IMG/VR virus record: IMGVR_UViG_3300025132_000255 | Coordinates: 1-25,967 of that record | DNA length: 25,967 nucleotides | Direction: 5' to 3' (one strand) | Source of the DNA: a virus | Part shown: piece by piece, positions 909 through 19,549 of the stretch | Position numbering within the stretch: position 1 is the stretch's first letter | Layout: every line of letters starts with the position of its first letter | Position numbers and translations under genes: made by a program | Notes under the pieces: generated by a model | Database searches by the model: none | What the model saw: the letters and a program-made list of their open reading frames with translations, nothing else | What the model was told of the DNA's origin: nothing

Positions 909-2727
909 CATAGAAACTAACGGTCTCTTGGACACCTGTGACACGCTCTGGTGTATCGTACTGATTGACGTTGAGTCAGGGGACATCCACAGGTTTGACC
1001 CTGAGGACTGCAAGGACGGGGTGAGGATGCTGCTGCAGTATGATGAAATCATAGGTCACAACATCATCGGCTTCGACATCCCTGCACTGGTCAAGCTGGG
1101 CCTCGCTGATTACGACAAACTCCCCAAGGTCACAGACACTCTCATCCTGAGTCGCCTAATGCATACCAACATCGGGGACGTAGACCGTGAGCATCTGGTA
1201 AAGAACAAGGACTACATACCCCTCAGGCTCCAAGGGTCACACGGCCTGAAGGCTTGGGGCTACAGGCTTGGGGAACACAAGGGAGAGTTCGGTGAAGAGG
1301 AGGGCTTCGATGTCTACAAGAGTGACATGCTTAACTACTGCAAGCAGGACACCATCGTCACTCACAAGCTCTACCAATCCCTGATGGATCAAGGTTGGGA
1401 CGATAAGTGTATCGAACTGGAACATGAGTTTGCTTGGTGCATTCACAGGATGGAGCATCACGGGTTCTCCTTCGACATCAACAAGGCACAAAAGTTGTAT
1501 GTTGATTTATCAGCACGAAAGCTGGAGCTAACTGAGGAACTTAAAGTCATCTTCCCTGACGATAAGATTCCCATGAAGTCTCACCTGTACCGGACACCTA
1601 ACGGACACCTATGGCCTACGAAAAAAGCAGCCAAGGAGGGAGGCTTTAAGGACAAGGAGATAACCAAAGGGCCACAGAAGTTAAAGCTGGTTCCCTTTAA
1701 CCCTGCCAGCCGTGATCACATAGGAGACAGGCTGCAGAGGTTGGGCTGGAAACCTGCTGATTTTACTGAGCAGGGTAAGCCTAAGATTGATGAGGGAATC
1801 CTCTCAAAGATCACGCTGGAGACCAACCAGCAGTCAGTTGAGCTACTTAATGAATACCTCCTGCTGGTGAAACGAATGGGGCAACTGGCAGAGGGTCAGC
1901 AGGCTTGGCTCAAGCTGGAAAAGAAGGGCCGTATGCATGGCCGAGTCAACACCAACGGTGCAGTCACAGGACGCTGTACCCATAGCAACCCTAACGTGGC
2001 CCAAGTGCCTCGTGTAGGGTCTCCATACGGGGAGGAATGTCGCTCCTTGTTCAAGGCCTCCGAAGGGATGAAACTCATAGGTTGTGATGCTGCTGGGTTA
2101 GAACTCAGGTGTCTGGCTCACTATCTCGCTCCCTATGATGACGGGGACTATACCCGTAAGCTCCTAGAGGAGGACATACACACTGTTAATCAGACAGCAG
2201 CAGGGCTTCCTTCACGGGACGCAGCCAAGCGATTCATCTACGCATTCTTATATGGTGCTGGTGATGCCAAGATCGGTGAAGTTATAGGCAAGGGCAGGGG
2301 AGCCGGTAAGAAAATTAAGGAGAAATTCCTGAGAAGTTTACCCGCTCTAGGACAATTAAAGACTTGTATAAGTAATGCACTTGAGTCAAGAAACTTCCTA
2401 AAGGGACTGGATGGGAGGCATCTCTTTATACGTAGTGAGCATTCTGCGCTAAACACACTGCTTCAATCGGCGGGGGCCGTAATAATGAAGCAGGCCACTG
2501 TCCATCTCTATAATAGCTTGACCAGTAAGGGGCTGGTTCATGGGAAAGATTGGGGGATAGTAGCACATGTGCATGATGAGTACCAATGTGAAGCCACGCC
2601 TGAATGGAGTGGACTTGTGGCTTCTGAGGCAGTTAGCGCAATCAAACAATCAGGGGTCACCCTTGGATTTAGGTGTCCACTGGATGGAGAATCTAAAGTG
2701 GGATTTAACTGGGCTGAAACGCACTGA
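889..2727 (+). CDS. gp5: DNA polymerase, family A with 3'-5' exonuclease (T7 gp5-like)
   Basis: Replicative polymerase of the phage, 612 aa (T7 gp5 is 704). Exonuclease motifs are intact: FDIET (D7, E9), GFD (D63) and YCKQD (D154), so proofreading should be active. Polymerase motif A is GCDAAGLELRCLAHYL (D400). Motif B is RDAAKRFIYAFLYGAG (R443, K447, Y451). Motif C is HVHDEYQ (D563, E564). Y451 is the position of T7 Y526 / E. coli F762. The protein ends NWAETH, keeping the terminal His of T7 (NWAICH). The thumb insertion that binds thioredoxin in T7 is only about 50 residues here (roughly 219-270), against about 76-90 in T7, and remains Lys-rich. The start at 889 is chosen for its strong Shine-Dalgarno. 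Together with gp4 it forms the replisome. Confidence 0.97.
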   Translation: MKRAIFDIETNGLLDTCDTLWCIVLIDVESGDIHRFDPEDCKDGVRMLLQYDEIIGHNIIGFDIPALVKLGLADYDKLPKVTDTLILSRLMHTNIGDVDREHLVKNKDYIPLRLQGSHGLKAWGYRLGEHKGEFGEEEGFDVYKSDMLNYCKQDTIVTHKLYQSLMDQGWDDKCIELEHEFAWCIHRMEHHGFSFDINKAQKLYVDLSARKLELTEELKVIFPDDKIPMKSHLYRTPNGHLWPTKKAAKEGGFKDKEITKGPQKLKLVPFNPASRDHIGDRLQRLGWKPADFTEQGKPKIDEGILSKITLETNQQSVELLNEYLLLVKRMGQLAEGQQAWLKLEKKGRMHGRVNTNGAVTGRCTHSNPNVAQVPRVGSPYGEECRSLFKASEGMKLIGCDAAGLELRCLAHYLAPYDDGDYTRKLLEEDIHTVNQTAAGLPSRDAAKRFIYAFLYGAGDAKIGEVIGKGRGAGKKIKEKFLRSLPALGQLKTCISNALESRNFLKGLDGRHLFIRSEHSALNTLLQSAGAVIMKQATVHLYNSLTSKGLVHGKDWGIVAHVHDEYQCEATPEWSGLVASEAVSAIKQSGVTLGFRCPLDGESKVGFNWAETH

Positions 2728-3106
2728 CGAATTAGCCGTGGGAGAAACTGCCGAAGCCATAATAGCCGCCAAGTTAATGGCCAAAGGCTTCATCGTTTCT
2801 GATCCTAGAAACACCACAGGCTATGACCTGCTGTCCGATTACAAGGATGTCATCAACAGAGTGCAGGTTAAATCTTCAGCTTCTCCACAACATCTGCGAG
2901 GGAAGGAAACCTATTACAGATTCAGGACAAGGAACGCCCTAGGGAACTACACTGTGCTGATTATATATGTGTTCCCTGAGGATGCTGCTTATATAATCCC
3001 TTGGTATGTTGTTAAAGAAAAGCACATGATCAACATACCCGTGAGTGGCCCCTCCAAGTATGATGAGTACAAAGAGAACTACAAAATACTACAGACGGCC
3101 AACTAA
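2684..3106 (+). CDS. PD-(D/E)XK nuclease-like protein
   Basis: 140 residues. The core resembles the small PD-(D/E)XK family linked to group I intron endonucleases and Holliday-junction-type nucleases: a helix with GETAEAIIAAKLMAKGF (E21), then GYDLL (D48), then a strand ending in VQVK (Q61, K63), followed by more strands. Spacing E...D-x12-QxK fits a catalytic site that would cut DNA with Mg2+. T7 keeps its own PD-(D/E)XK enzyme, endonuclease I (gp3), left of gp4; here a nuclease of that fold sits right of the polymerase, so it may do gp3's job of host DNA breakdown and branch resolution (inference). The ATG at 2684 is preferred over the frame's earlier ATG at 2567, which would give a 160-base overlap with the polymerase. 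An AGGTG lies 8 bases upstream of 2684. Confidence 0.75.
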   Translation: MENLKWDLTGLKRTDELAVGETAEAIIAAKLMAKGFIVSDPRNTTGYDLLSDYKDVINRVQVKSSASPQHLRGKETYYRFRTRNALGNYTVLIIYVFPEDAAYIIPWYVVKEKHMINIPVSGPSKYDEYKENYKILQTAN

Positions 3107-3392
3107 GGTTCTCATCCTCAACCAGACCTTTAAAGTCGAATGGGTAGCCTCTAGTGATTCACACGGCACAGCAGACCTAGACAAATGTGTCATTCAAATC
3201 GCTAAAGGCTACCCCAAAGAAACTACAGCAGACACTTTCCTTCACGAGTTAATCCACTGCATCAACCATGTGATGGATATAACTGACAGTACAACAGAAG
3301 AACAAGCAACAACACGATTAGCCACTGGACTCACTACGGTTTGGAAACACAATCCCAAGGTGTTTGAGTGGCTGGCTCGTCAACTCACATGA
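3060..3392 (+). CDS. Small HExxH metallopeptidase-like protein
   Basis: About 110 residues. It contains HELIH (residues 62-66), the zinc-binding and catalytic signature of gluzincin-type metallopeptidases, preceded by TADTFL and followed by a Glu pair (80-81, TTEEQATTRLATGL) that could give the third ligand. The layout (DLDKCVIQIAKG strand, then HExxH helix, then a Leu-rich helix ending NPKVFEWLARQL) resembles a small phage family with an ImmA/SprT-like fold. Substrate unknown; host-protein cleavage is a guess. The start is uncertain: ATG at 3060 or 3063, or GTG at 3045, none with a good Shine-Dalgarno. The gene overlaps the nuclease gene by 47 bases and shares ATGA with the exonuclease. Confidence 0.72.
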   Translation: MMSTKRTTKYYRRPTKVLILNQTFKVEWVASSDSHGTADLDKCVIQIAKGYPKETTADTFLHELIHCINHVMDITDSTTEEQATTRLATGLTTVWKHNPKVFEWLARQLT

Positions 3393-4132
3393 ATACAACC
3401 ATACTATTAGACGGAGACATCGTAGCCTATAAACACGCTGCAGGTGCTGAAGTGGCAACCGATTGGGGTGATGACATCTGGAGTCTCTGGACTGATGTAC
3501 GGCAGGCAGTGCAGCAGATGGATGCAGACATCAAGTTCATTGCTAAAAACCTGAAGGCGACCAAGGTTGTCATAGCCCTAACAGGTAAGGACAACTTCAG
3601 GAGAGACATTGATCCCACTTACAAACATAGCAGGAAGACTTCCAGAAAACCTATGGGCCTTGTCCCCTTACGGGAACACCTGCTGAAGGAATGGGCTGCA
3701 GAAATAGTAGAACCTTTGGAAGCAGATGACCTGTTGGGAGTGTGGGCTACTGATCCCAACTACTGCAAAGGCTCCCGTAAGATTATTGTCAGCACAGACA
3801 AAGACATGAGGACTATTCCATGTGAACTGTGGAACCCCAACAAGGCTGAAGAGGGTATCAAAAAGATTACCGAGGAAGCTGCAGACAGATTTCACCTATA
3901 CCAGACCCTCATAGGAGACTCCACTGACGGATACATGGGGTGTCCTACCATCGGCCCTACCAGAGCTAACCGAATCTTAAACGAAGGAGCTACATGGGAT
4001 GCTGTTGTAGAGGCATACGAACTACAGGGCCAATCCTCCGTGGACGCCCTAGTGCAGGCTAGGTTGGCTAGAATTTTACGGGCAGAAAACTACGATCCCG
4101 TAACCAAAAAGATTAAATACTGGAAACCATGA
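3389..4132 (+). CDS. gp6: 5'-3' exonuclease (T7 gp6-like, FEN family)
   Basis: 247 residues (T7 gp6 is 300). Double-strand DNA 5'-3' exonuclease and flap nuclease, used to remove RNA primers and degrade host DNA. Metal-ligand acids of the FEN/5'-nuclease family can be placed: LLDGD (D8, D10), EADDLLG (E111, D113, D114), STDKDM (D137, D139) and GDSTDGYMG (D177, D180). The last is followed by a helix-hairpin-helix-like CPTIGPTRANRIL that would grip the duplex. PTYKHSRKTSRK (76-87) matches the positively charged arch. The start at 3389 is chosen because the ATG shares bases with the stop of the preceding gene (ATGA). Its own stop likewise overlaps the next ATG. Confidence 0.93.
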   Translation: MNTTILLDGDIVAYKHAAGAEVATDWGDDIWSLWTDVRQAVQQMDADIKFIAKNLKATKVVIALTGKDNFRRDIDPTYKHSRKTSRKPMGLVPLREHLLKEWAAEIVEPLEADDLLGVWATDPNYCKGSRKIIVSTDKDMRTIPCELWNPNKAEEGIKKITEEAADRFHLYQTLIGDSTDGYMGCPTIGPTRANRILNEGATWDAVVEAYELQGQSSVDALVQARLARILRAENYDPVTKKIKYWKP

Positions 4133-4680
4133 AGATCATAGGACTATCGGGGAAGAAACGCTCAGGGAAAGATACTGTCTACCAAGTAGCAGGGGACTAC
4201 CTAAAGAAAAACAAGGCCAAGGCAGGGCGTGTTGCTTTTGCTGATCCTCTTAAACATGAAATATCAGAGATCACAGGATTCAATCTGGAGTTCATAGAGA
4301 AAAACAAAGAGGGACTTAGGCCCCTGCTTCAGACATGGGGTGCTGACTTCAGGCGTAAATACTGTGGTGCAGAATACTGGATCGACAAAATGAGGCCTAT
4401 AGTTGAGCAGTCCTCAAGCCACTACGATGTACTGTTCATTACTGATTGCCGTTTCACAAACGAAGCTAGGTACATCAAAGAGATCGGAGGAACTCTCGTC
4501 AAGGTTGAGCGTAGAGATTCAGGATACCCCGACTCATTCGACAACCACTCCTCAGAGAATGACCTCAATGATTATGGAGACTACGACTACATTCTTAACA
4601 ACGACAAGACCAAAGAGGAACTCACGCAATCAGTCAGCCAAATGCTAGAAACTTTAAATATTTTCAAAAATGCCGCTTGA
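4129..4680 (+). CDS. Deoxynucleoside monophosphate kinase
   Basis: 183 residues. Phosphorylates dNMPs to dNDPs, so nucleotides released from host DNA can be reused. A P-loop GKKRSGKDT (residues 8-16) opens the protein. VAFADPLKHEI follows, as in phage dNMP kinases of the T4 gp1 type, then ADFRRKY, the FITDCRFTNEA segment (Walker B-like, with the LID region after it), and NDYDYILNND near the end. These are typical of the family, though it is shorter than T4 gp1 (241 aa). The ATG overlaps the exonuclease stop (ATGA), so the nucleotide producer and the recycler are translated together. T7 lacks this enzyme in gene 6 context. Confidence 0.88.
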   Translation: MKIIGLSGKKRSGKDTVYQVAGDYLKKNKAKAGRVAFADPLKHEISEITGFNLEFIEKNKEGLRPLLQTWGADFRRKYCGAEYWIDKMRPIVEQSSSHYDVLFITDCRFTNEARYIKEIGGTLVKVERRDSGYPDSFDNHSSENDLNDYGDYDYILNNDKTKEELTQSVSQMLETLNIFKNAA

Positions 4681-4885
4681 CCTTCCTATTAATTTTGCTA
4701 ATGAGAAGTTGCCTCCAGTATCAGAGGAGCTTATCCTGTGGTTGAAAGGGGTGTATCCAGACCGGATGCCTGATGACGAAGAGATGGGGATCATTCGTTA
4801 TAAACAAGGGCAACAGTCTGTTGTAAGAACGCTTACAAGTATATACGAGGAGTTAAGGGATGTGTCTGTCAGCACCAAAACCTAA
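4670..4885 (+). CDS. Small hypothetical protein
   Basis: 71 residues, not recognised by name. It reads LPINFANEKLPPVSEELILWLKGVYPDRMP, then an acidic turn (DDEE), then a helix GIIRYKQGQQSVVRTLTSIYEELRD. A similar layout (helix, 'hPDRxP', then a helix with GQ..VV..L) is common in short phage proteins next to the portal gene. No catalytic motif, signal peptide or TM segment. It overlaps the kinase gene by 11 bases and the next gene by 26. Possibly a head-tail or assembly accessory protein; this rests on position only. Confidence 0.7.
   Translation: MPLDLPINFANEKLPPVSEELILWLKGVYPDRMPDDEEMGIIRYKQGQQSVVRTLTSIYEELRDVSVSTKT
4847..4852 (+). promoter_or_regulatory. Ribosome binding site for the 4860 gene
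   Basis: GAGGAG sits 7 bases before the ATG at 4860, inside the end of the preceding gene. It is among the strongest sites in the window and supports this small gene as real. Confidence 0.6.
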
Positions 4886-9526: not shown

Positions 9527-10357
9527 ATGGCTTACGGTGCATTTACAGGAAAGTTGGAGGCGGTCAACCAGATGTTGTCCACCATTGGGCAGTCTCGGAT
9601 CAGCCAACTGGCAACTGCAGGCGAAGCCAATGATGCTCAAAAGATATTAGAGGAGATAGACAAGGCGGTTCAGTCTGAAGGCTGGCACTTCAATATCTTC
9701 TATGATGTCGAGTTGGCACGTGGCAGTGAGACCATCACTTGTGTAGTAACAAACACAACCACGGTAACCACAAAGAACGGTAACGATGATGCCCCTCACT
9801 ATTTGTCCAAAGGAGAAACAGTAACCATAGGGGATACCAACTATACTGTTGCTTCTGTGACTAACGCCAACGCCTTTGTGGCCAGTGCAGGCCCCACAGG
9901 TACATCAATGGGATACACCAAACGTATTGGTACTCCCACAACAGCACTAAACATAGATTTCTCCTCGTATCGCTACGGTGACATAGACCCTGTGGTAAGA
10001 GGTAGGTTCATCTACGACAAAAACAACGCTACCTACGAGTACAACGAAGACCTCAAGGCAATCATTACGTATCAGATTCCCTTTGAGCAAAACTCCTCAG
10101 GAGGTGAGTCACTCCCTGAGTATGCGCGTAGATACATTACCATGAAGGCTGCACGTGTGTTTGCTCAACGACACGTAGGAGACCCTCAGTTGGTACAGAT
10201 GGCGTCCTACGAGGAGCGTGAGGCACACGCACAGTTTATCCAAGCTGACTCAGAGAATGCAGAGACCAACGTGTTCAATGCTTCTTTACCTTATTACACA
10301 GTATCACGAGGGCAAGCAGTACAGTCACCCTCTATATCTAATCTATACAAAGTCTGA
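9527..10357 (+). CDS. gp11: Tail tube protein A / adaptor (T7 gp11-like) with inserted domain
   Basis: 276 residues (T7 gp11 is 196). Forms the ring between the portal and the nozzle and docks the fibres. The N-terminal helix pair matches T7 (LEAVNQMLSTIGQSRISQL, NDAQKILEEIDKAVQSEGWHFN), as does the C-terminal YARRYITMKAARVFAQRHVG...EEREA segment. Between them lies an extra Thr/Asn-rich beta region (about 66-135), containing HYLSKGETVTIGDTNYTVAS. The ATG at 9527 starts the homologous part; the in-frame TTG at 9479 would read through the terminator and is rejected. No Shine-Dalgarno precedes the ATG, which stands 7 bases after the terminator T-run. The stop overlaps the next start (TGATG). Confidence 0.93.
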   Translation: MAYGAFTGKLEAVNQMLSTIGQSRISQLATAGEANDAQKILEEIDKAVQSEGWHFNIFYDVELARGSETITCVVTNTTTVTTKNGNDDAPHYLSKGETVTIGDTNYTVASVTNANAFVASAGPTGTSMGYTKRIGTPTTALNIDFSSYRYGDIDPVVRGRFIYDKNNATYEYNEDLKAIITYQIPFEQNSSGGESLPEYARRYITMKAARVFAQRHVGDPQLVQMASYEEREAHAQFIQADSENAETNVFNASLPYYTVSRGQAVQSPSISNLYKV

Positions 10358-13300
10358 TGCCTTTAGTTAAGAACGCAGCAGCAAGTCTAAACCAAGGGGT
10401 AAGCCAGCAGGCTGAGTCCCAGCGGTATCCTTCACAGGCCTCGGAGCAGATCAATGCTTACTCCTCGCCCATCAAGGGACTTGTTAAGCGTCCTCCAACT
10501 AAGTTCATCAACACGATTGGGACTGACTCCAGTGATTCTAACAGGAACAAATCTTTTGTTCACACAATCAACAGAGATTCCAGTGAGCAGTATGCAGTAG
10601 TCATCAACCCACAGGAAGCTGTGGATGTCACAGACTTTACAGTCGGAACCAACAAGGTAGCTGCTGCCGGTATCGTCACTAATGATGTAATTACTTTTCT
10701 GCCAAAAGAAGAAGGAGCAGTACCCCCTACAGGAATAGACTATGGTGTTGCTTATTATGCCCTAGAGAACTCTCCCTTTACTTTTTCAAAGACACAAGGG
10801 GGAACGGCGGTTTCTATTGGTGAATCATCCATACTGAATATACGCACAGAAGCTGTGTACGATTATGCAGGTGAACAATGGATAGACGGAGTTTTCCACG
10901 TTACATTTCCAAACGGACATTCACTCAAAGAGGGTGATAAAATTCAATTCTCAGGGCTGGTGGGAAATTACATCAAGACACAACTCCCTGAAAATAAAAC
11001 GTATATCCTACACAAGCCTTCTCTGGGGCCTAACAGTTCTAAGCAATATCTCGGTGGATACGATGTAAGCACAAGCAATGCTGCCACAGTCTCTCTATAT
11101 CCAGACAACAAGTTTATCCTAGTAGCAGCAGACACAGTAGATTTTTCGTCCAGCAACAACTACGGGTATGTAATTGATTCTATAGCTGTTAACGACACTA
11201 CAAACTATCGTGGATGGGTACAGTTAGGTGATGGCTCCGCTAGTGACGGGCCTAAGTTTAGCTTATGGAATAACTATGACTCCACAGGAGATGGTTCCAA
11301 TGACACATGGGTAGCAGCCAATGGGTCTTCAGGTGACAATGTGTTTAATACGGTACTCCTTGATCCAGATGACGAGAGTGATTTTGGTAGCGGTAACTTG
11401 GCCAACTGGTCTTCCAATCTTTCTCAGTTTGATGTGGGTGACTTGATTAGAATAGGCGGCATCTCAAATCCCAGTAAGGTGATGAGAGGTGTCATTGAGT
11501 CTATTGGTGTGGCAACCATCAACAGCGTTGCATACAAACGAATTACCTTCACTAGGCACATGAAGGCAGGCCAACTGTTTGACAACACAACAGGTAAATG
11601 GTGTCACATTTCGTTTTGGGGTGATGTCACTAATCCCACAACCCCCGCCACACACAACCCTCGCCAAGTAAAAGACACTGAAGTTCCCAACACTGCACGT
11701 GTAGGAACCAATGGAGCAGGCACAATTCAAGTCAGAAAATCTAACGGAGTAGGGGGAGTAGCAGTTTATGATTTAACCAACGGTCAACAACAGACAGTTA
11801 ACGTTGAGTCAGGTTTGGAATACCTCACTACTTCAGCTAACCCAAACGAAGATATTACAGCAGTCACTGTTGCTGATTACACTTTTCTCGTTAACAAAAC
11901 AAAAACAGTTAAGTCCGACTCTAGGCCTAAATATAAAACAAACTACGAAGCCTTCATAGAGACACGCACTGCCGACTACGGTAAGACTTACACAATCAAA
12001 GTTGGAGGTGAAACAGACAAAGAGAATGTAGCAGAATCAAACACTGACTATCCCCGTGCGTTTTTTGCTGGAAGGAACGACATAGGAAACAAGGTGGCCA
12101 ACGCCTTCATGCTTCGTGCTAAGACAAAGGAGTCCAAATACCTGAAGTGGACTATTAGGATAATCCAAAACTGGGAATGGAAAGTTGCCCCTGACTCAGT
12201 AGAGGGACAAAAAACTTATGACCGTTCTGATCCCAGCCCAACACAGGCTTTAGACTTATTGCCTCCCTTAAAGTACCGACAGGATGGAACAGGAAACAAA
12301 GTAGGCATAGAGTTTGACGATGATAACAAAGTGTTAAACATCTGGGCTAACTTCCACTTTGCACGTAACGGGCTGAACACCAACACGGATGTCCTTGCCA
12401 ATCTTACAACAGTAAAAGACATAAGAGATGCTGTTGCTAATCACTCTGAAGCAAGCCAACACTGGGATGTCCTAAAGGCTGACGGAAGTGCGCTAGATGA
12501 CACCAACGATGCCACAGCTTTAGCCTACACTCTCTTTGAAGTATACATCTCCAAGCAGAGAGGAAATGTACTCAACCTTTCATTTGATCACGACAAGTAC
12601 GATTGGCAGGAGATTCTTATTAATGTAGGTGAGGATGAAATTTATGGAGACATTGTTAATGGAAACTTCACTGAAGGACTCCTCACACCCTCTGCTACTT
12701 TAGGCCACTACCAACGTCACGGCCTGACAGGAATTGATGGAGCAAAAGTAATCTCTCCTAAGATGACCTTTGCCTTTGGGACACGGCAGGTAGCCAATGG
12801 GGAGTACTACTACAAGACTCCTAAATGGACAGGGAACGCAGACCAGCAGGCCATAGGCACTAATCAGATTGCTGAAAAACTAGCAAGTGATGCACGGTTA
12901 TCTTTGCAGAGTGACGGTTCAGGAACTTCTAGAAACTGGACATCAGCAAAACGGGCTGACGGAGCCTCTATCGTAGGAGGATCAGCAAATATAACTGAAG
13001 CCGTACAGATAGCAGGCCAAGAGGAGTGCCTTGGGTTAACATCAAAGAAAGCAGGAACAGACGGTATTCTCCAAAAAATTTCAGAAGTCAGCACAGCAAC
13101 AAGTGTTCCCCGAATAGATGGACACACTCAGGATTGGTTAGTCAAACAGGATGGGTACATGATCTCCATTCAGAATCCTGAAAACACTCGGTTTGCTATA
13201 TCAGTCGCAGATGACCTTGGAGGTAACGGACTGAAGATGACTTACTACGAGGCAGATGAGGCTGCAGACTTGCCTGCTATTTGCCGTCACGGTCACGTTG

Positions 13301-14892
13301 TTAAGATCGTAGGTAATGCCAGAGAGGAAGCTGACGATTATTACTTACGGTTTGAAGGCGACACCAAAGATAACACCAAGTTTGAACACGGGCGTTGGGT
13401 AGAGTGTGTAGGTTATGACACCAAGTATAAGTTTGATAACTCCACAATGCCTGTGGGCCTTGTACGCGAGTCTGATGGAACGTTTACGCTAAAGGAACTT
13501 GATTGGGATGAAAGAAAAGCTGGAGATGACCTAAGCAATCCTTTCCCTTCTTTTACCAACACAACAATCAACGACATATTCCTATTCAGAAACAGGCTGG
13601 GAATACTTTCTGGAGAGAACGTCATCTTCAGTGAGTCTGGAGAGTACTTTAATTTCTTCAGAACAACCACAGCAGCACTGCTGGACTCAGCCCCTATTGA
13701 TGTCACAGCCAGCACAAACAAAGTGTCCACACTAAGAAGTGCTGTTCCTTACAATGAAAGGTTAATTCTCTTTAGTGATCAAACACAGTTTGTACTGGAG
13801 GCTGAACCGTTTCTGTCTGTCAAAACGGTGACGCTTACGCCATCAAATGAGATCGACAGCATCAGTAATGTTAAGCCTGTCCTTAGTTCCAACTCTATTT
13901 TCTATGGATTCAAACGTGCAGGCTACAGCGGAGTGGGAGAACTGGGAGTGTCCATTGAGGATGCCGACCAGATAGATGCAGAGGATGTCACCTCCCACAT
14001 TCCTAAATACATCAAAGGCTCTTTACGTAAACTGGCAGCAGCAACAAACGAGAAGGTTGTCTGTGGGATCACGGATGACACAACAGCAGCTACCCTCTAC
14101 GTCTACAAGTTCTTCAACAACGCACAGAACCAGAGAGTTCAATCAGCGTGGTTCAAGTACACTTTTGGAACAGCCAACGACTACATCACTGACATTTCTT
14201 TCATAGCCAACACCCTGTACATGGTAGTCCGTAGAAGTGGCAGCATGTACCTTGAGGCAATTACCTTTGAGGATGACATCAAGGATACTGGGATGGACTA
14301 CGAAGTGTGTCTGGATCACAGGTACGACAAGCCTTCAGATAACTCAGGTGTTTCATACGGAACCACCACGACCATTACAATGCCTGCAGGTTATGTTGTG
14401 ACCTCTGCTATGAAGCTGGTGACTAATGAGTCCGTGCAGTACGCCAGCAGCACCACAGGGAGCAACACGTTTACTGTCGCTGCCAACCTAACCGGCAAGA
14501 ACTTCTTTATAGGTGTTCCCTACACAATGGAGTACACGTTCAGTCAGCCCTTTCTGAAACACGACAGGGTAACTGACACAGGGAGATACCAGATACAAAG
14601 GGCGTTCCTAGAGTACGCCAATGCCAGATCATTTACTGTTGATGTGGTTCACAATCCCAAGATGGATGCTCCTAATAAAAACACGATCACCAACACGTAT
14701 GCCAATGATGCGCTACATTCGATCCTGACAGGATCAGCAGATTTACAGGAAGGGTTCTTTAAGTTTGGAGTACAGGAGAGAAACGACAGGCTCCAGATCG
14801 TTGTTAAGAATGACACCCCATACCCTTCGGACTTTTTGAGTATTGATTATGAAGCAAGAACATTTGCTAGAGGAAGCAGATGGAGAGGTTAG
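10357..14892 (+). CDS. gp12: Tail tube protein B / nozzle (T7 gp12-like), greatly enlarged
   Basis: 1511 residues against 794 in T7. Hexameric nozzle of the tail. The N-terminus (LNQGVSQQAESQRYPSQASE, then GLVKRPPTKFINT) is the classic gp12 opening. Other T7-like parts are VAVYDLTNG (468 on) with TTSANPNEDITAVTVADYTF, GKTYTIKV (542-549), NADQQAIGTNQIAEKLA (827 on), GHVVKIVGNAREEADDYYLRF, PSFTNTTINDIFLFRNRLGI, EDVTSHIPKYI, and a C-terminus ending ARGSRWRG. Two insertions explain most of the extra length: about 82-467 and about 552-826. The first contains a beta module (GHSLKEGDKIQFSGL) like the insert in the gp11 homologue. Translationally coupled to gp11. Confidence 0.94.
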   Translation: MPLVKNAAASLNQGVSQQAESQRYPSQASEQINAYSSPIKGLVKRPPTKFINTIGTDSSDSNRNKSFVHTINRDSSEQYAVVINPQEAVDVTDFTVGTNKVAAAGIVTNDVITFLPKEEGAVPPTGIDYGVAYYALENSPFTFSKTQGGTAVSIGESSILNIRTEAVYDYAGEQWIDGVFHVTFPNGHSLKEGDKIQFSGLVGNYIKTQLPENKTYILHKPSLGPNSSKQYLGGYDVSTSNAATVSLYPDNKFILVAADTVDFSSSNNYGYVIDSIAVNDTTNYRGWVQLGDGSASDGPKFSLWNNYDSTGDGSNDTWVAANGSSGDNVFNTVLLDPDDESDFGSGNLANWSSNLSQFDVGDLIRIGGISNPSKVMRGVIESIGVATINSVAYKRITFTRHMKAGQLFDNTTGKWCHISFWGDVTNPTTPATHNPRQVKDTEVPNTARVGTNGAGTIQVRKSNGVGGVAVYDLTNGQQQTVNVESGLEYLTTSANPNEDITAVTVADYTFLVNKTKTVKSDSRPKYKTNYEAFIETRTADYGKTYTIKVGGETDKENVAESNTDYPRAFFAGRNDIGNKVANAFMLRAKTKESKYLKWTIRIIQNWEWKVAPDSVEGQKTYDRSDPSPTQALDLLPPLKYRQDGTGNKVGIEFDDDNKVLNIWANFHFARNGLNTNTDVLANLTTVKDIRDAVANHSEASQHWDVLKADGSALDDTNDATALAYTLFEVYISKQRGNVLNLSFDHDKYDWQEILINVGEDEIYGDIVNGNFTEGLLTPSATLGHYQRHGLTGIDGAKVISPKMTFAFGTRQVANGEYYYKTPKWTGNADQQAIGTNQIAEKLASDARLSLQSDGSGTSRNWTSAKRADGASIVGGSANITEAVQIAGQEECLGLTSKKAGTDGILQKISEVSTATSVPRIDGHTQDWLVKQDGYMISIQNPENTRFAISVADDLGGNGLKMTYYEADEAADLPAICRHGHVVKIVGNAREEADDYYLRFEGDTKDNTKFEHGRWVECVGYDTKYKFDNSTMPVGLVRESDGTFTLKELDWDERKAGDDLSNPFPSFTNTTINDIFLFRNRLGILSGENVIFSESGEYFNFFRTTTAALLDSAPIDVTASTNKVSTLRSAVPYNERLILFSDQTQFVLEAEPFLSVKTVTLTPSNEIDSISNVKPVLSSNSIFYGFKRAGYSGVGELGVSIEDADQIDAEDVTSHIPKYIKGSLRKLAAATNEKVVCGITDDTTAATLYVYKFFNNAQNQRVQSAWFKYTFGTANDYITDISFIANTLYMVVRRSGSMYLEAITFEDDIKDTGMDYEVCLDHRYDKPSDNSGVSYGTTTTITMPAGYVVTSAMKLVTNESVQYASSTTGSNTFTVAANLTGKNFFIGVPYTMEYTFSQPFLKHDRVTDTGRYQIQRAFLEYANARSFTVDVVHNPKMDAPNKNTITNTYANDALHSILTGSADLQEGFFKFGVQERNDRLQIVVKNDTPYPSDFLSIDYEARTFARGSRWRG

Positions 14893-15364: not shown

Positions 15365-15917
15365 CCCAGCATTCATGATTCCAGCCCTAGGGAGTAAACT
15401 CCTAGTAGGCGCGTCTGTAGCCACAGCAGGAGCCAGTGCCTATTTAGGTCACAAGGCGGCTAAAGATAATGCCAAGGCTATTGAAGGCCACCAACGCGCA
15501 GTAGGAAGCTCTATGACTGATCAACATGCTTCCAACATGACTGATTCTCTGGCGAGACAGCAGGAAGCCGCAACTAAAGCTGCACGGGACAGAGAACAAA
15601 TTCAACGTAAAGCATTTTCAGTAGCGGCTACAGCACGAACTTCTGCGCTGGAAAGTGGCCTTGGTGGAAATTCATTTGCAGCCTTAATGCAGGAGTACGA
15701 CCAAAGAGAAGCAGAGTTAATGCAGGCATCTTATTTGAATGAGGATTTACTGGAAAACCGTTACAGAAGAGAAAGAGAACAAGCATCAATAGGAACACAG
15801 GCAAGGCTTGTGTCTAATTATCGACCAATAAATCAACCAAGCGGTGTGGCAGCAGCCCTTGATTTTGCAGGTGATTCTTTGTCTGCCATTACAGCCTATA
15901 AAGCAAGGACATCATAA
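15357..15917 (+). CDS. gp14: Internal virion protein B (T7 gp14-like)
   Basis: 186 residues (T7 gp14 is 196). In T7, gp14 leaves the capsid first and forms the outer-membrane part of the ejection channel. Like T7 gp14 (MCWAAAIP...), it begins with Met-Cys and a hydrophobic stretch (MCSPAFMIPALGSKLLVGASVATAGASAYLG). A long Ala/Gln/Arg helical region follows, with ALESGLGGNSFAALMQEYD matching the SIRAAIGESMLEGSSMDR part of gp14, and ENRYRREREQASIGTQA. ATG at 15357 overlaps the gp13-like stop; its TAA overlaps the next ATG (TAATG). Confidence 0.88.
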   Translation: MCSPAFMIPALGSKLLVGASVATAGASAYLGHKAAKDNAKAIEGHQRAVGSSMTDQHASNMTDSLARQQEAATKAARDREQIQRKAFSVAATARTSALESGLGGNSFAALMQEYDQREAELMQASYLNEDLLENRYRREREQASIGTQARLVSNYRPINQPSGVAAALDFAGDSLSAITAYKARTS

Positions 15918-18900
15918 TGGCAGCAAAACGAAGAGTTACCCCATCCGTAGAATCTTTAGGGACACCCCAAACCGCCCCTGCTGTAGGATCGCCCAATTAT
16001 AACGTAATAGGAGCAGCAGGGCCTCCTATCGGGCCTAACCCGTTAGCACAACTCTCACAGTCTTTGCGTAGGTTTAATCCTGTGCTTGGTCAGTATGCTG
16101 CAGCTAAACAACAGATGTCAGCAGAAGATGCCAAGAAATGGTTTGATGAAATGGAGCAAGGCGTCAGCGATAACGCTATCTTCATTAAAAGAAAACTAAA
16201 GGAACTTGGCTATGACGATCACGCTAACCCTGAAATATACAAGCAGGAGATAATCAACACTGCTCAGAACTTTGCTGTTAGGGATGCCACAGCTATTGCT
16301 ACTAACCCAGAGTTCCTGACAGCTATGCAGGAGTTATCAAAGACCAGTGATGATTTCGCTAATGATGCTGTAGCTTTGATTAACGAAAAGTTTCCCCATC
16401 CTGAACGGGAAGCCGAAGATAAAAAAGTAGGACACTATTGGGAAGTGGGCTACGGCAAAGGATGGATTACAGCAAGAGATCATATCCTGTCTCCGTTTGT
16501 AGAGGCACACGAAAAAGCAAGGCCCGTTCAGATAAAACAGGCTTTCTTTGAAAACGGAAGAAACCAATTGGCAAGTGCGCTCTCTTCAAGTTCTAAAGAT
16601 TGGGAACCTAAATTTTTAGGCCTAAGAAAATTCCTCAACACAAGCTATGGGGGATACGCAGGACAAGGAGCAGCTTACTCGCAGGCCGTCATGGATAACA
16701 TAATTAAGCCTGTGTTTATGGATTTAGCCAGAGACCCAAATAATGACATTAACTTAGCAGCCGCATGGAATAGGGTCACAAAGCTAACAAGGGATAATCC
16801 TAACGGAGGCAGAACCCAACTGTTTAAAAAACACAGTGACATCAGCATGGCTGCAGGGGTGAACACTGCGACAGATGTTTGGGCTGAGATAGCGCAGGCA
16901 GAAGAACAAGCCTATTACAAGCAGAGCAAAAAGCAAAACACCCTGCAGACTGATTTAAATAACAAAGTACAACAGACGTTAGGTAACTGGGAAACTTTTT
17001 CGCAAACGCCTGAAAACATAGAATGGGCCAAAGGAGAAAACATTTTCGGGCTTGATCCTTTTGATCGCCTAAATCACAGCCGCATAGCAGACGCACTTTC
17101 AAGACACCCTGATTTAAGACTGCCGCCTACGGTAGCTAACGATCAGGTAATGTATATGTTCAGTGATGCTGTCAGGGATGGAAGAACCGCAGTACTCAAA
17201 ATTGATACAGAAGGCATTGGCGCAGAAAAAGATTACAGAGACGCCCTCATGAATAGCCTTTCTGTGGTCGCTCAAGAATCAGGAGTACCCATACTGCAGT
17301 CCATGATTCCCAAAATTGAAAAAGCCATAGGCAATCCTTCTTTAAGCATACCGGATATACGAAAGGAAGCCCTTGCGTTTCTCAACACAGATGAGTTCAA
17401 GATGGCGTTCTTCACGGATAATCCTAACATTGATCCTGAGACTCTTCCTTGGAAAGCTGCCATTACACAGGCCTTCGATAAGATGTCAGAAGGAACTGCC
17501 ATTTCTACAGGACGGGATTACCTGCATCTAGCTAACGCATTACTTGATAATCCCAATACAGCCACAAAAGATTTAAACGAAATCCATGAGGACTTGAGGG
17601 ACATTTTGAATGAGGTTGATGATACTGATTTAGAATCTGACATCAAAGGAGTCATGGATACAATAAAACAGAGAAATGACCTTAAGCCTTACTACACAAT
17701 CACTGACAAATATTTAAATGACATTGTTAACGAAGCAATAACCGATACCGTTAACGAAGAACTGGCAAACGTCTACGCACTGGCCAACCAAAGGCTACCA
17801 ACTGGAGAGGGTGCGGGAGATATAAACGTGGCTGATCCTGTCAAGATAATGGCGGCTGATGGTGCGCTGGCGAAAGCTGTTACTGTTGCAAGAAATGAAT
17901 GGAACGAACAAGTCTCTGCAGGCCTAGCTGGAATTGATCCTGTGGAAAGGGACGCTGCGTGGTCTGCGAAGGGACTAAAAGATACTGTAAGAGAACGAAC
18001 AGTTAATTCTCTAAAACGTACCTTTAAACACAGCGTCTTGAACGATTACAACGAGCGTTTAAGAAGAGACCCTAAAGCTGCTATAAAACAGGAAGAACAA
18101 GAGCAGGGGATATTCACAGATGACATTAAGGAACTTATAAGGAATAAGGATGGCGTAGAAAAACAATTCCATACGGACAAAATATATGGAGGGTCAGCAA
18201 CAGAAGGTAAAGAAACAGAAGTAAAACCTAATTTATCCCTGCAGTTTATGGCGGGGCCAAAAGGACAACAGCGGTACAACAACCTTAAGGAAAACAAACG
18301 TAAGATTGTTAAAGCACGAAAAGAACTTATTGGGAACATTTACAACAAAACAGAAGAACTGAAAAAACTTGAGGAAACTGGAAGCCAATCCGCACAGCGT
18401 TCCAAAGCGGCTGAACGTGACAACGAGGTACTGACTTTCAAGGCCTTTGAGAAAGAGTTTGGAATTTTGCCTTGGGAAAAACTCAATTCCCCTGAAGGCT
18501 TAACACTTGAGCTACCTACGGCAGGCGCACCTATACAGGTCAAGTTCGACCTAGATGAGGACAGGATAAACCTGAACAACACCCTCGTATTTGAGTCTCT
18601 TCCAAAAATCTCTGAAAAGATAGAGTCACTAAACACATGGGAAGAGGAGCAGGGAGGGGAGGCTGCAGAGACTAATCGTGAGTCTGCACCTGAAGACCTT
18701 AAGGAACACGCTAATTTTATTAAGAGAGCGCATGGGATAGATATACTAGCGCGTGACCCTTCGGTTAGAAAGTCAGCCCTTGAGGACTACACTCAGCTAC
18801 TCCAATCCCAAGCAGGCATGATTCACTCAAGCCATCCTGAGCAACTCCCCGTAGGAGTCAGGAAAGACCTAGAAGATCAGGCATTAAAACAGTTTTACAC

Positions 18901-19549
18901 AAGTGACTCTAATAAGTTTCAAGGGATTACTTTCTCTGAAAATGAAAAAAGTTGGGTGGCTGGAGTACACCAACAAAGAGAAGACATTATCGCAGGGAAG
19001 TACAATGTTGAAGATGGGCTAACTTCAGAAGAATTTATTAAGAATTATAAGGCGTTAACAGGGGGAGAAGTTTCCAGAGAAGTCTATACAGTATATGATG
19101 GCACACTACACGGTGTCCCTCAGAGGCAGATTTCATTAACACGAAAAACAACAGCATTGAACCCTAAGAGCGAGGCTGAAGTAATCGCCCAAGAATTAGC
19201 CATGCTTGATATTGGAATCCCTAATCCAATTCTATCTACGAGGGTTAAAAAGAATTCATACGGATGGGCAGGTGTGGGTGAAGATTCGTTGTTGTTCAGT
19301 ATCCTAGGAGATGACTTCTTTGGGGCAGACCCGAAGGAAATGCAGCTTAAACCTGAAGGGTTGAAACGTCTCCGTGAACGGACAAACTATTACAGGGGCC
19401 TGCTAGAAGCCCCGTCAGTGAAACAAACTGATTTAGCCAAAGCATTCAACAAGCTCCTTAAAGGAGAAACTAATTACTTTGAGAACAGATACAACAGGGA
19501 AAACACATTTGGGATAACCCCCCTGCCAATCCCAAGAAAACAAAAATAA
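15917..19549 (+). CDS. gp15: Internal virion protein C (T7 gp15-like), enlarged
   Basis: 1210 residues against 747 in T7. By position and character this is the gp15 core/ejection protein, which with gp16 forms the periplasmic tube that DNA crosses. The N-terminus is Pro-rich and flexible (PSVESLGTPQTAPAVGSPNY), followed by LAQLSQSLRRFNPVLGQYAAAKQ and long, mostly helical sequence. VGHYWEVGYGKGWITARDHILSPFVEAHEKA and QAFFENGRNQLA are like gp15 N-terminal repeats. A charged coiled coil is likely around 790-835. No catalytic motif, including lytic transglycosylase, was found. The identification rests on order and composition more than on long identity. Confidence 0.82.
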   Translation: MAAKRRVTPSVESLGTPQTAPAVGSPNYNVIGAAGPPIGPNPLAQLSQSLRRFNPVLGQYAAAKQQMSAEDAKKWFDEMEQGVSDNAIFIKRKLKELGYDDHANPEIYKQEIINTAQNFAVRDATAIATNPEFLTAMQELSKTSDDFANDAVALINEKFPHPEREAEDKKVGHYWEVGYGKGWITARDHILSPFVEAHEKARPVQIKQAFFENGRNQLASALSSSSKDWEPKFLGLRKFLNTSYGGYAGQGAAYSQAVMDNIIKPVFMDLARDPNNDINLAAAWNRVTKLTRDNPNGGRTQLFKKHSDISMAAGVNTATDVWAEIAQAEEQAYYKQSKKQNTLQTDLNNKVQQTLGNWETFSQTPENIEWAKGENIFGLDPFDRLNHSRIADALSRHPDLRLPPTVANDQVMYMFSDAVRDGRTAVLKIDTEGIGAEKDYRDALMNSLSVVAQESGVPILQSMIPKIEKAIGNPSLSIPDIRKEALAFLNTDEFKMAFFTDNPNIDPETLPWKAAITQAFDKMSEGTAISTGRDYLHLANALLDNPNTATKDLNEIHEDLRDILNEVDDTDLESDIKGVMDTIKQRNDLKPYYTITDKYLNDIVNEAITDTVNEELANVYALANQRLPTGEGAGDINVADPVKIMAADGALAKAVTVARNEWNEQVSAGLAGIDPVERDAAWSAKGLKDTVRERTVNSLKRTFKHSVLNDYNERLRRDPKAAIKQEEQEQGIFTDDIKELIRNKDGVEKQFHTDKIYGGSATEGKETEVKPNLSLQFMAGPKGQQRYNNLKENKRKIVKARKELIGNIYNKTEELKKLEETGSQSAQRSKAAERDNEVLTFKAFEKEFGILPWEKLNSPEGLTLELPTAGAPIQVKFDLDEDRINLNNTLVFESLPKISEKIESLNTWEEEQGGEAAETNRESAPEDLKEHANFIKRAHGIDILARDPSVRKSALEDYTQLLQSQAGMIHSSHPEQLPVGVRKDLEDQALKQFYTSDSNKFQGITFSENEKSWVAGVHQQREDIIAGKYNVEDGLTSEEFIKNYKALTGGEVSREVYTVYDGTLHGVPQRQISLTRKTTALNPKSEAEVIAQELAMLDIGIPNPILSTRVKKNSYGWAGVGEDSLLFSILGDDFFGADPKEMQLKPEGLKRLRERTNYYRGLLEAPSVKQTDLAKAFNKLLKGETNYFENRYNRENTFGITPLPIPRKQK

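Follow-up and report, generated by a model that had tools for sequence, protein, structure and literature searches.

A candidate minimal zincin in the T7 5.3–5.9 slot of a T7-like virus genome

Gene organization of the locus

The stretch of DNA analyzed here, a 25,967-base virus record that we refer to as the window, carries its genes in a T7-like order: primase/helicase, family A DNA polymerase, PD-(D/E)XK protein, HExxH protein, 5′–3′ exonuclease, and deoxynucleoside monophosphate (dNMP) kinase, followed by head-tail connector, scaffold, capsid, tail, and internal virion proteins. The six genes from primase/helicase to kinase all lie on the plus strand. The window starts inside the primase/helicase gene, of which the C-terminal part is present (2–673; phrog_239, 1 × 10−76). 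The polymerase (871–2727) stands at the T7 gene 5 position and, like the dNMP kinase (4129–4680), was identified by Pfam and PHROGs profile matches. The PD-(D/E)XK nuclease-like protein (2684–3106) scored over the Pfam cut-off for PDDEXK_5 (3.1 × 10−10) and matched phrog_5018 (4.3 × 10−9), the family that T7 gp5.3 itself matches at 3.9 × 10−44; its alignment also matched T7 gp5.3 in hhalign (probability 95, P = 1.8 × 10−8), and we regard it as the T7 gene 5.3 homologue. The exonuclease (3389–4132; phrog_107, 1.3 × 10−64) is the homologue of T7 gene 6, with 32% identity to gp6 in a single comparison (E = 1 × 10−38).

Elsewhere in the window, a 94-residue open frame without a convincing family match (624–908) overlaps the helicase and polymerase genes on either side, and a 71-residue protein of phrog_4970 (4670–4885) is conserved to about the same degree as the HExxH protein (median 72%). 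The best of three phrog_457 stretches in a 1511-residue tail protein (10357–14892) covers residues 816–1508, leaving the long N-terminal part less explained, and a 1210-residue protein among the internal virion proteins (15917–19549) has no PHROG match at E ≤ 0.01. The PD-(D/E)XK protein is fast-evolving (27–64% identity, median 36%), and the adjoining HExxH protein is slower.

The gene under study (3060–3392, plus strand) is 110 codons long, and its open frame, start, and stop agree with an earlier sequence-only reading of this DNA. It shares 47 bases with the gene before it and 4 with the exonuclease gene, the exonuclease ATG overlapping its stop codon. An alternative, longer start exists at GTG 3045; relatives favor the ATG at 3060 or 3063. 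The protein carries an intact HELIH at residues 62–66, as the sequence-only reading had described, and downstream of it the adjacent glutamates E80 and E81 as the probable third zinc ligand. Conservation and a structure model, both detailed below, support its description as a metallopeptidase-like protein of the zinc-protease type.

Conservation and selection

Relatives were collected from 22 contigs (57–92% identity over the matched part) using sequence patterns that did not include HExxH. All 22, encoding 17 distinct proteins, carry HExxH-x13-EE, and residues H62, E63, H66, E80, and E81 are invariant in an 18-row alignment (A2), both glutamates being kept in 18/18 rows. The one downstream histidine that we counted, H70, is present in 16/18 rows of A2 and in 10/62 rows of a wider family alignment (A4), and no family-wide conserved His follows HExxH at the positions examined. 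As the pattern behind A4 demanded HExxH, EE, G, V, and NP, the invariance of these residues in A4 carries no evidential weight.

Using the window protein and its relatives as queries, we found 27 named phage records and read 12 chosen to span hosts, comprising phages of Bordetella, Bradyrhizobium, Macromonas, Microcystis, Lactobacillus, Lacticaseibacillus, Streptococcus (two), Arthrobacter, and Clostridioides difficile together with two phages known from an environmental sample only. HExxH is present in 12/12, an adjacent downstream Glu-Glu pair in 10/12, and at least one Glu there in 12/12, at a spacing of +12 to +22; in the window protein and its clade the spacing is +14/15. Five carriers retrieved with an exonuclease bait (see below) also have HExxH, although all five were already among the 22 contigs and are not independent. 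Relatives lacking the HExxH residues, which the sequence-only reading had named as counter-evidence, were met in nothing that we read. These counts bear on whether the protein might bind zinc without cutting, for example as a binding inhibitor built on a zincin scaffold. In the material examined no activity is on record for the family, as such a protein would allow, but the general-base Glu of HExxH, dispensable for zinc binding alone, is kept in all 22 clade contigs and all 12 named records, and we consider a non-cutting role very improbable.

The gene is under purifying selection where present. Its dN/dS was 0.03–0.12 in 7/16 comparisons, while synonymous change was saturated in the other nine, including that between the window and its relative L017 (pS 0.76, saturated; pN 0.036). 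Between the same two sequences, dN/dS of the neighbors was 0.026 for the polymerase, 0.034 for the exonuclease, and 0.137 for the PD-(D/E)XK protein, with the kinase saturated. In 16 of the 22 relatives we compared identity to the window gene by gene: the peptidase exceeded the polymerase in 10/14 comparisons, the exonuclease in 11/16, the kinase in 14/15, and the PD-(D/E)XK protein in 15/15, and fell below the portal in 13/14 and the helicase in 10/11.

Family assignment and predicted fold

The window protein matched the phrog_1233 profile at E = 7.9 × 10−17 over residues 12–105 of 110 and, judged by sequence, is a member of this known but uncharacterized phage family. Searching viral contigs with a degenerate pattern gave 115 stretches, and a version with one-residue-longer spacing gave at least 120. 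The 233 proteins read out from the listed matches of both scans all matched the clade profile at E ≤ 1 × 10−3, their scores against the clade and family profiles being helped by the shared search pattern. Among the matches listed, they comprise at least 178 different cores in at least 60 clusters at 50% identity. The 62 rows of A4 (one per cluster, the window protein, and the protein of Bordetella phage BB8) all matched phrog_1233 at E ≤ 1 × 10−4; a search of the viral contigs with the BB8 protein itself gave no relative. In the genome_contigs collection the first pattern found only 11 stretches, 9 of which scored at least 80 bits against the family profile, and phrog_1233 matched in 2/14 control genomes; on these sequence counts, the family is largely viral.

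Matches to families of assigned function were weak and split. At E ≤ 0.01, 17 of the 62 members matched DUF6782 in Pfam, 9 Peptidase_M78, 7 SprT-like, and 5 DUF4344. The best sub-threshold Pfam match of the window protein was SprT-like (PF10263), with 21.4 and 20.5 bits against a cut-off of 25.6 (E = 2.4 × 10−4), and Peptidase_M78 (PF06114) gave 12.6 bits against a cut-off of 22, so that the similarity to ImmA or SprT for which the sequence-only reading had proposed a search stays under both thresholds. Against solved chains, the profile of the clade itself (A1) listed three, among which Spartan was the sole peptidase (E = 0.67) and IrrE did not appear; the wider family profile (A4) gave IrrE/PprI as best solved relatives (IrrE E = 0.003), with Spartan at 0.2. 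NCBIfam returned nothing for the window protein at E ≤ 1. We rejected membership of a defense family, as PADLOC gave the window protein no match at E ≤ 0.01; its weak matches, to three PDC-S02 models and AbiEi, each came from one of the 62 members (best 0.003).

A structure model built from the 18-row alignment (pLDDT 88.6, pTM 0.79) is of the zincin type. Strands at 16–19, 22–29, 36–39, and 44–48 precede a helix (53–71) bearing HELIH, a second helix (80–97) that begins at E80/E81, and a final helix; residues 1–15 have no helix assigned, and the first ten average a pLDDT of 50. Foldseek found no solved structure in the PDB at E ≤ 0.001. The top solved match was PprI/IrrE (E = 0.093), with selecase-type minigluzincins among the first ten, and 11 models in a viral structure library matched at E ≤ 0.001, some of them named IrrE N-terminal-like or SprT-like. 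VIA-align gave Z scores of 5.2 for ArdC (88 residues, 4.0 Å), 4.6 for a Mycobacterium regulator, 4.4–4.5 for IrrE, 4.4 for selecase, 4.3 for lethal factor, and 3.6 for Wss1, values that may reflect a shared arrangement only. Kinship was not read from this ranking, since the Mycobacterium regulator and lethal factor score like IrrE and no family is singled out.

The third zinc ligand of SprT-like proteins is a histidine. Membership of SprT/Spartan was set aside on the Pfam cut-off together with the ligand type (a Glu pair, and no family-wide third His), and membership of M78 on the cut-off together with the spacing of the third ligand. In IrrE the ligands are His82, His86, and Glu113, a spacing of 27 (PMC5552922), as against 14/15 here; we therefore call the window protein a minimal zincin, as its fold is predicted to be, and a member of neither SprT nor M78.

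The sequence-only reading had suggested a SprT/Spartan-like role, and the same evidence weakens it. A protease of this type would free the DNA in front of the phage replisome of proteins crosslinked to it or stuck on it; the gene adjoins the polymerase and exonuclease, SPRTN is described as a DNA-dependent HExxH protease (PMC5127644), and SprT-like is the best Pfam match of the window protein, as Spartan is the only peptidase listed by the clade profile. Set against this are the missed cut-off, the Glu pair in place of a family-wide third His, the preference of the wider profile for IrrE, and the lack of the gene in close relatives (see below), and the 110 residues probably leave no room for a separate DNA-binding module. 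We consider such a role improbable.

Genomic settings of the wider family

Family members occur in quite different modules. In Lactobacillus and Streptococcus phages relatives lie between portal/head and scaffold genes, and others adjoin methylase and guanylate kinase genes, or terminase. A relative in Streptococcus phage Javan445 (L282, 2998–3291) adjoins a repressor gene, with cro and antirepressor genes nearby, an ImmA-like position. We picked 90 neighbors by hand from cluster representatives outside the cluster of the window; these matched 186 PHROGs, the 25 commonest of which include terminase, DNA polymerase, exonuclease, portal, tail tube, and endolysin, and no family-wide neighborhood rule was found among them. 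Genomic position can for this reason be a misleading guide to function, and a single role for the family may not exist.

The Javan445 setting is one reason to consider an ImmA/IrrE-like regulatory peptidase, which would cleave a specific DNA-binding repressor of a prophage, of the host, or of the phage itself. IrrE cleaves the repressor DdrO (PMC5552922), IrrE/PprI heads both the solved relatives of the wider profile and the Foldseek matches, and nine of the 62 members match Peptidase_M78. The window protein, however, misses the M78 cut-off and has its Glu at +14/15 rather than +27, and a PHROGs scan of 21 window frames found no repressor, the early region lying outside the window. We regard this reading, which overlaps with the host-directed role proposed below and differs from it only in the kind of target, as unlikely, if still worth weighing.

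The T7 5.3–5.9 slot

Between gene 5 (polymerase) and gene 6 (exonuclease), T7 carries genes 5.3, 5.5, 5.7, and 5.9. A PHROG scan of T7 returned 5.5 as an H-NS inhibitor and 5.9 as a RecBCD inhibitor, and placed 5.3 in phrog_5018 and 5.7 in phrog_1334. Described as a small winged-helix-like protein, T7 Gp5.7 is needed for optimal infection and acts as a repressor of host RNA polymerase at phage-genome promoters (PMC5569994); phrog_1334 is entered in PHROGs as unknown. The upstream neighbor of the peptidase in the window is of the gp5.3 family, the downstream neighbor is the gp6 homologue, and in Bordetella phage BB8 and 17 other contigs the gene immediately preceding the peptidase, on the same strand, is of the phrog_1334 (Gp5.7-like) type (5 of these 18 loci had contributed to the profile used). 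By gene order and homology, these neighbors thus place the peptidase in the T7 5.3–5.9 host-takeover slot. The sequence-only reading had placed the gene in a replication operon, which its polymerase and exonuclease neighbors bear out, and had called a protease there unexpected; this second part does not stand, as the gap is where T7 keeps small accessory takeover genes.

The position is informative for T7-like members of the family only. In 7/60 clusters the family member is preceded by a T7-like polymerase, followed by an exonuclease starting within about 0.7 kb, or both (positions taken for at most three members each). Seven T7-like isolates near the window by polymerase (BB8 apart) have no phrog_1233 member in the 8.8–8.9 kb examined; their small genes in the same slot encode thymidylate synthase, a Gp5.7-like protein, and unknowns. 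We found no description of this gene or of phrog_1233 in the literature searched, and the main text of the BB8 paper has no word starting with protease or exonuclease. What is new here is the place of the peptidase in the T7 slot and the pattern of its loss, neither of which we found described in that literature.

Absence from close relatives

We collected relatives of the locus with the exonuclease as bait, which is blind to the peptidase, covering the best 80 of 128 exonuclease relatives. Eleven loci had at least 60% exonuclease identity, and 10 of these had at least 400 bases upstream. The peptidase is present in 5/10, all with HExxH, and absent from 5/10; among remoter loci (<60% exonuclease identity, at least 700 bases upstream) it is present in 0/62. 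Neither figure is a prevalence, as the exact-peptide bait missed most known carriers with 57–65% exonuclease identity. The ten include near-copies: L312, L313, and L314 have identical exonuclease genes, and L316, L317, and L318 are 92–97% alike there. In the remoter loci (L323–L387, within the same best 80 of 128), a Gp5.7-like gene is present in 64/69 and ends within 23 bases of the exonuclease start, abutting or overlapping it.

The five non-carriers represent three lineages (L309, L311, and L312 = L313 = L314), and in all of them the gp5.3-like gene runs directly into the exonuclease. Polymerase, PD-(D/E)XK, exonuclease, and kinase genes are present at 5/5 of these loci and the portal at 4/5. 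No phrog_1233 member was found elsewhere on the non-carrier contigs, in stretches of up to 33.8 kb (L309 33.8 kb, L313 30.8 kb) that are probably fragments, and across 20 records scanned the family matched in five, namely the five carriers. In a 25-row tree L312 pairs with the carrier L037 (96/91), and L309 and L311 (97/93) group with the window and L017 (84/85, below the mark for good support). The presence or absence label needs four changes on this tree, three of them forced by well-supported branches; the tree rests on the exonuclease alone and carries a long-branch warning on its outgroup rows. Read from this tree, the nesting of non-carriers among carriers means at least two losses within the clade, or loss and regain. 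The sister phages L309, L311, and L312–L314 are natural absence controls for the gene.

This clean absence lowers the case for an essential role in replication or virion processing. It bears in the same way on a processing enzyme for a phage protein, whether in replication or in virion maturation. Conservation above that of most neighbors would suit a co-evolving phage partner, and the relatives between portal/head and scaffold genes fit such a role; yet the sisters without the peptidase keep the genes around it, so that any partner there manages without. We think this improbable.

Proposed role

The reading we favor, to which we give about an even chance, is that the gene encodes a zinc peptidase of minimal zincin type with an accessory role directed at the host, one that would cut one or a few bacterial proteins during takeover from within the T7 5.3–5.9 slot. 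The conserved HExxH and downstream Glu, the zincin-type fold predicted by the model, and the finding, on contigs, of close relatives that lack the gene yet keep its neighbors all point this way. Zinc binding and proteolysis are in our judgment quite probable, and whether the substrate is a host protein we hold to be evenly balanced. The peptidase would act on a conserved bacterial protein during phage replication, for example a nucleoid, transcription, or recombination/nuclease factor, as a proteolytic counterpart of T7 Gp5.5, Gp5.7, and Gp5.9. Among the targets that the sequence-only reading had named, a host repressor or a defense protein may be the best fit to the slot and to the absence from close relatives.

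Because the gene is well kept where present, absent in some close sisters, and located among takeover genes, it is best read as a conditional aid, probably useful but dispensable, rather than a core replication step. It evolves more slowly than a protein in a fast arms race would be expected to, which counts against the host-directed reading and means that a host target, if there is one, should itself be conserved. A redundant repair function would also fit the lack of the gene in some lineages. More tentatively, and with less than even confidence, we propose that in some T7-like phages the binding-type inhibitors of the 5.5–5.9 slot (against H-NS, host RNA polymerase, and RecBCD) could be replaced or supplemented by a catalytic one, the 110-residue zinc peptidase, which would destroy a conserved DNA-associated protein of the bacterium. 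On this view its gene would be a cassette, gained and lost, that lies between gp5.3 or gp5.7 and the exonuclease.

The T7-like setting gives phrog_1233, a diverse family without assigned function, a testable context, with known neighbors, a well-studied slot, and natural sister phages that either carry or lack the gene. Should the substrate prove to be a host factor, proteolysis would join the ways in which T7-like phages disarm the cell, and a very small protease would become available for study. The general idea has precedents: cutting of host proteins has been proposed for SprT-like peptidases of jumbo phages (PMC7824862), and a SprT-like protein is reported to be widespread among mycobacteriophages (PMC12363180).

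Comparison with known systems

With IrrE/PprI and ImmA (PF06114, M78) the window protein shares HExxH and a downstream Glu, weak profile similarity, and weak fold similarity (Z 4.4–4.5), but at 110 residues it has no HTH region, its Glu is not at +27, and it scores under the Pfam cut-off. It resembles SprT-like proteins, Spartan, and Wss1 (PF10263) in its HExxH context, its sub-threshold Pfam match, and a Z of 3.6 to Wss1, and differs in the missing conserved third His and in falling below the cut-off. The minimal gluzincins (selecase, abylysin, jannalysin) and the ArdC peptidase domain are likewise small zincin domains among the Foldseek and VIA-align matches; identity to them is very low, all Z values are below 8, and several other zincins rank alike, so that kinship is not established.

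The zincin-like MPTases of phages and plasmids are described with an N-terminal helix, a beta sheet, the HExxH helix, and then a Glu helix (PMC5512222); the predicted model has the same succession of sheet, HExxH helix, and Glu helix, the N-terminal helix of that layout not being seen in it. In gene order the comparison is with T7, whose gp5.3, 5.5, 5.7, and 5.9 all lack a phrog_1233 match and which has Gp5.5, Gp5.7, and Gp5.9 instead, but whose gap between polymerase and gene 6-type exonuclease is shared by the window, along with an upstream neighbor of the gp5.3 family.
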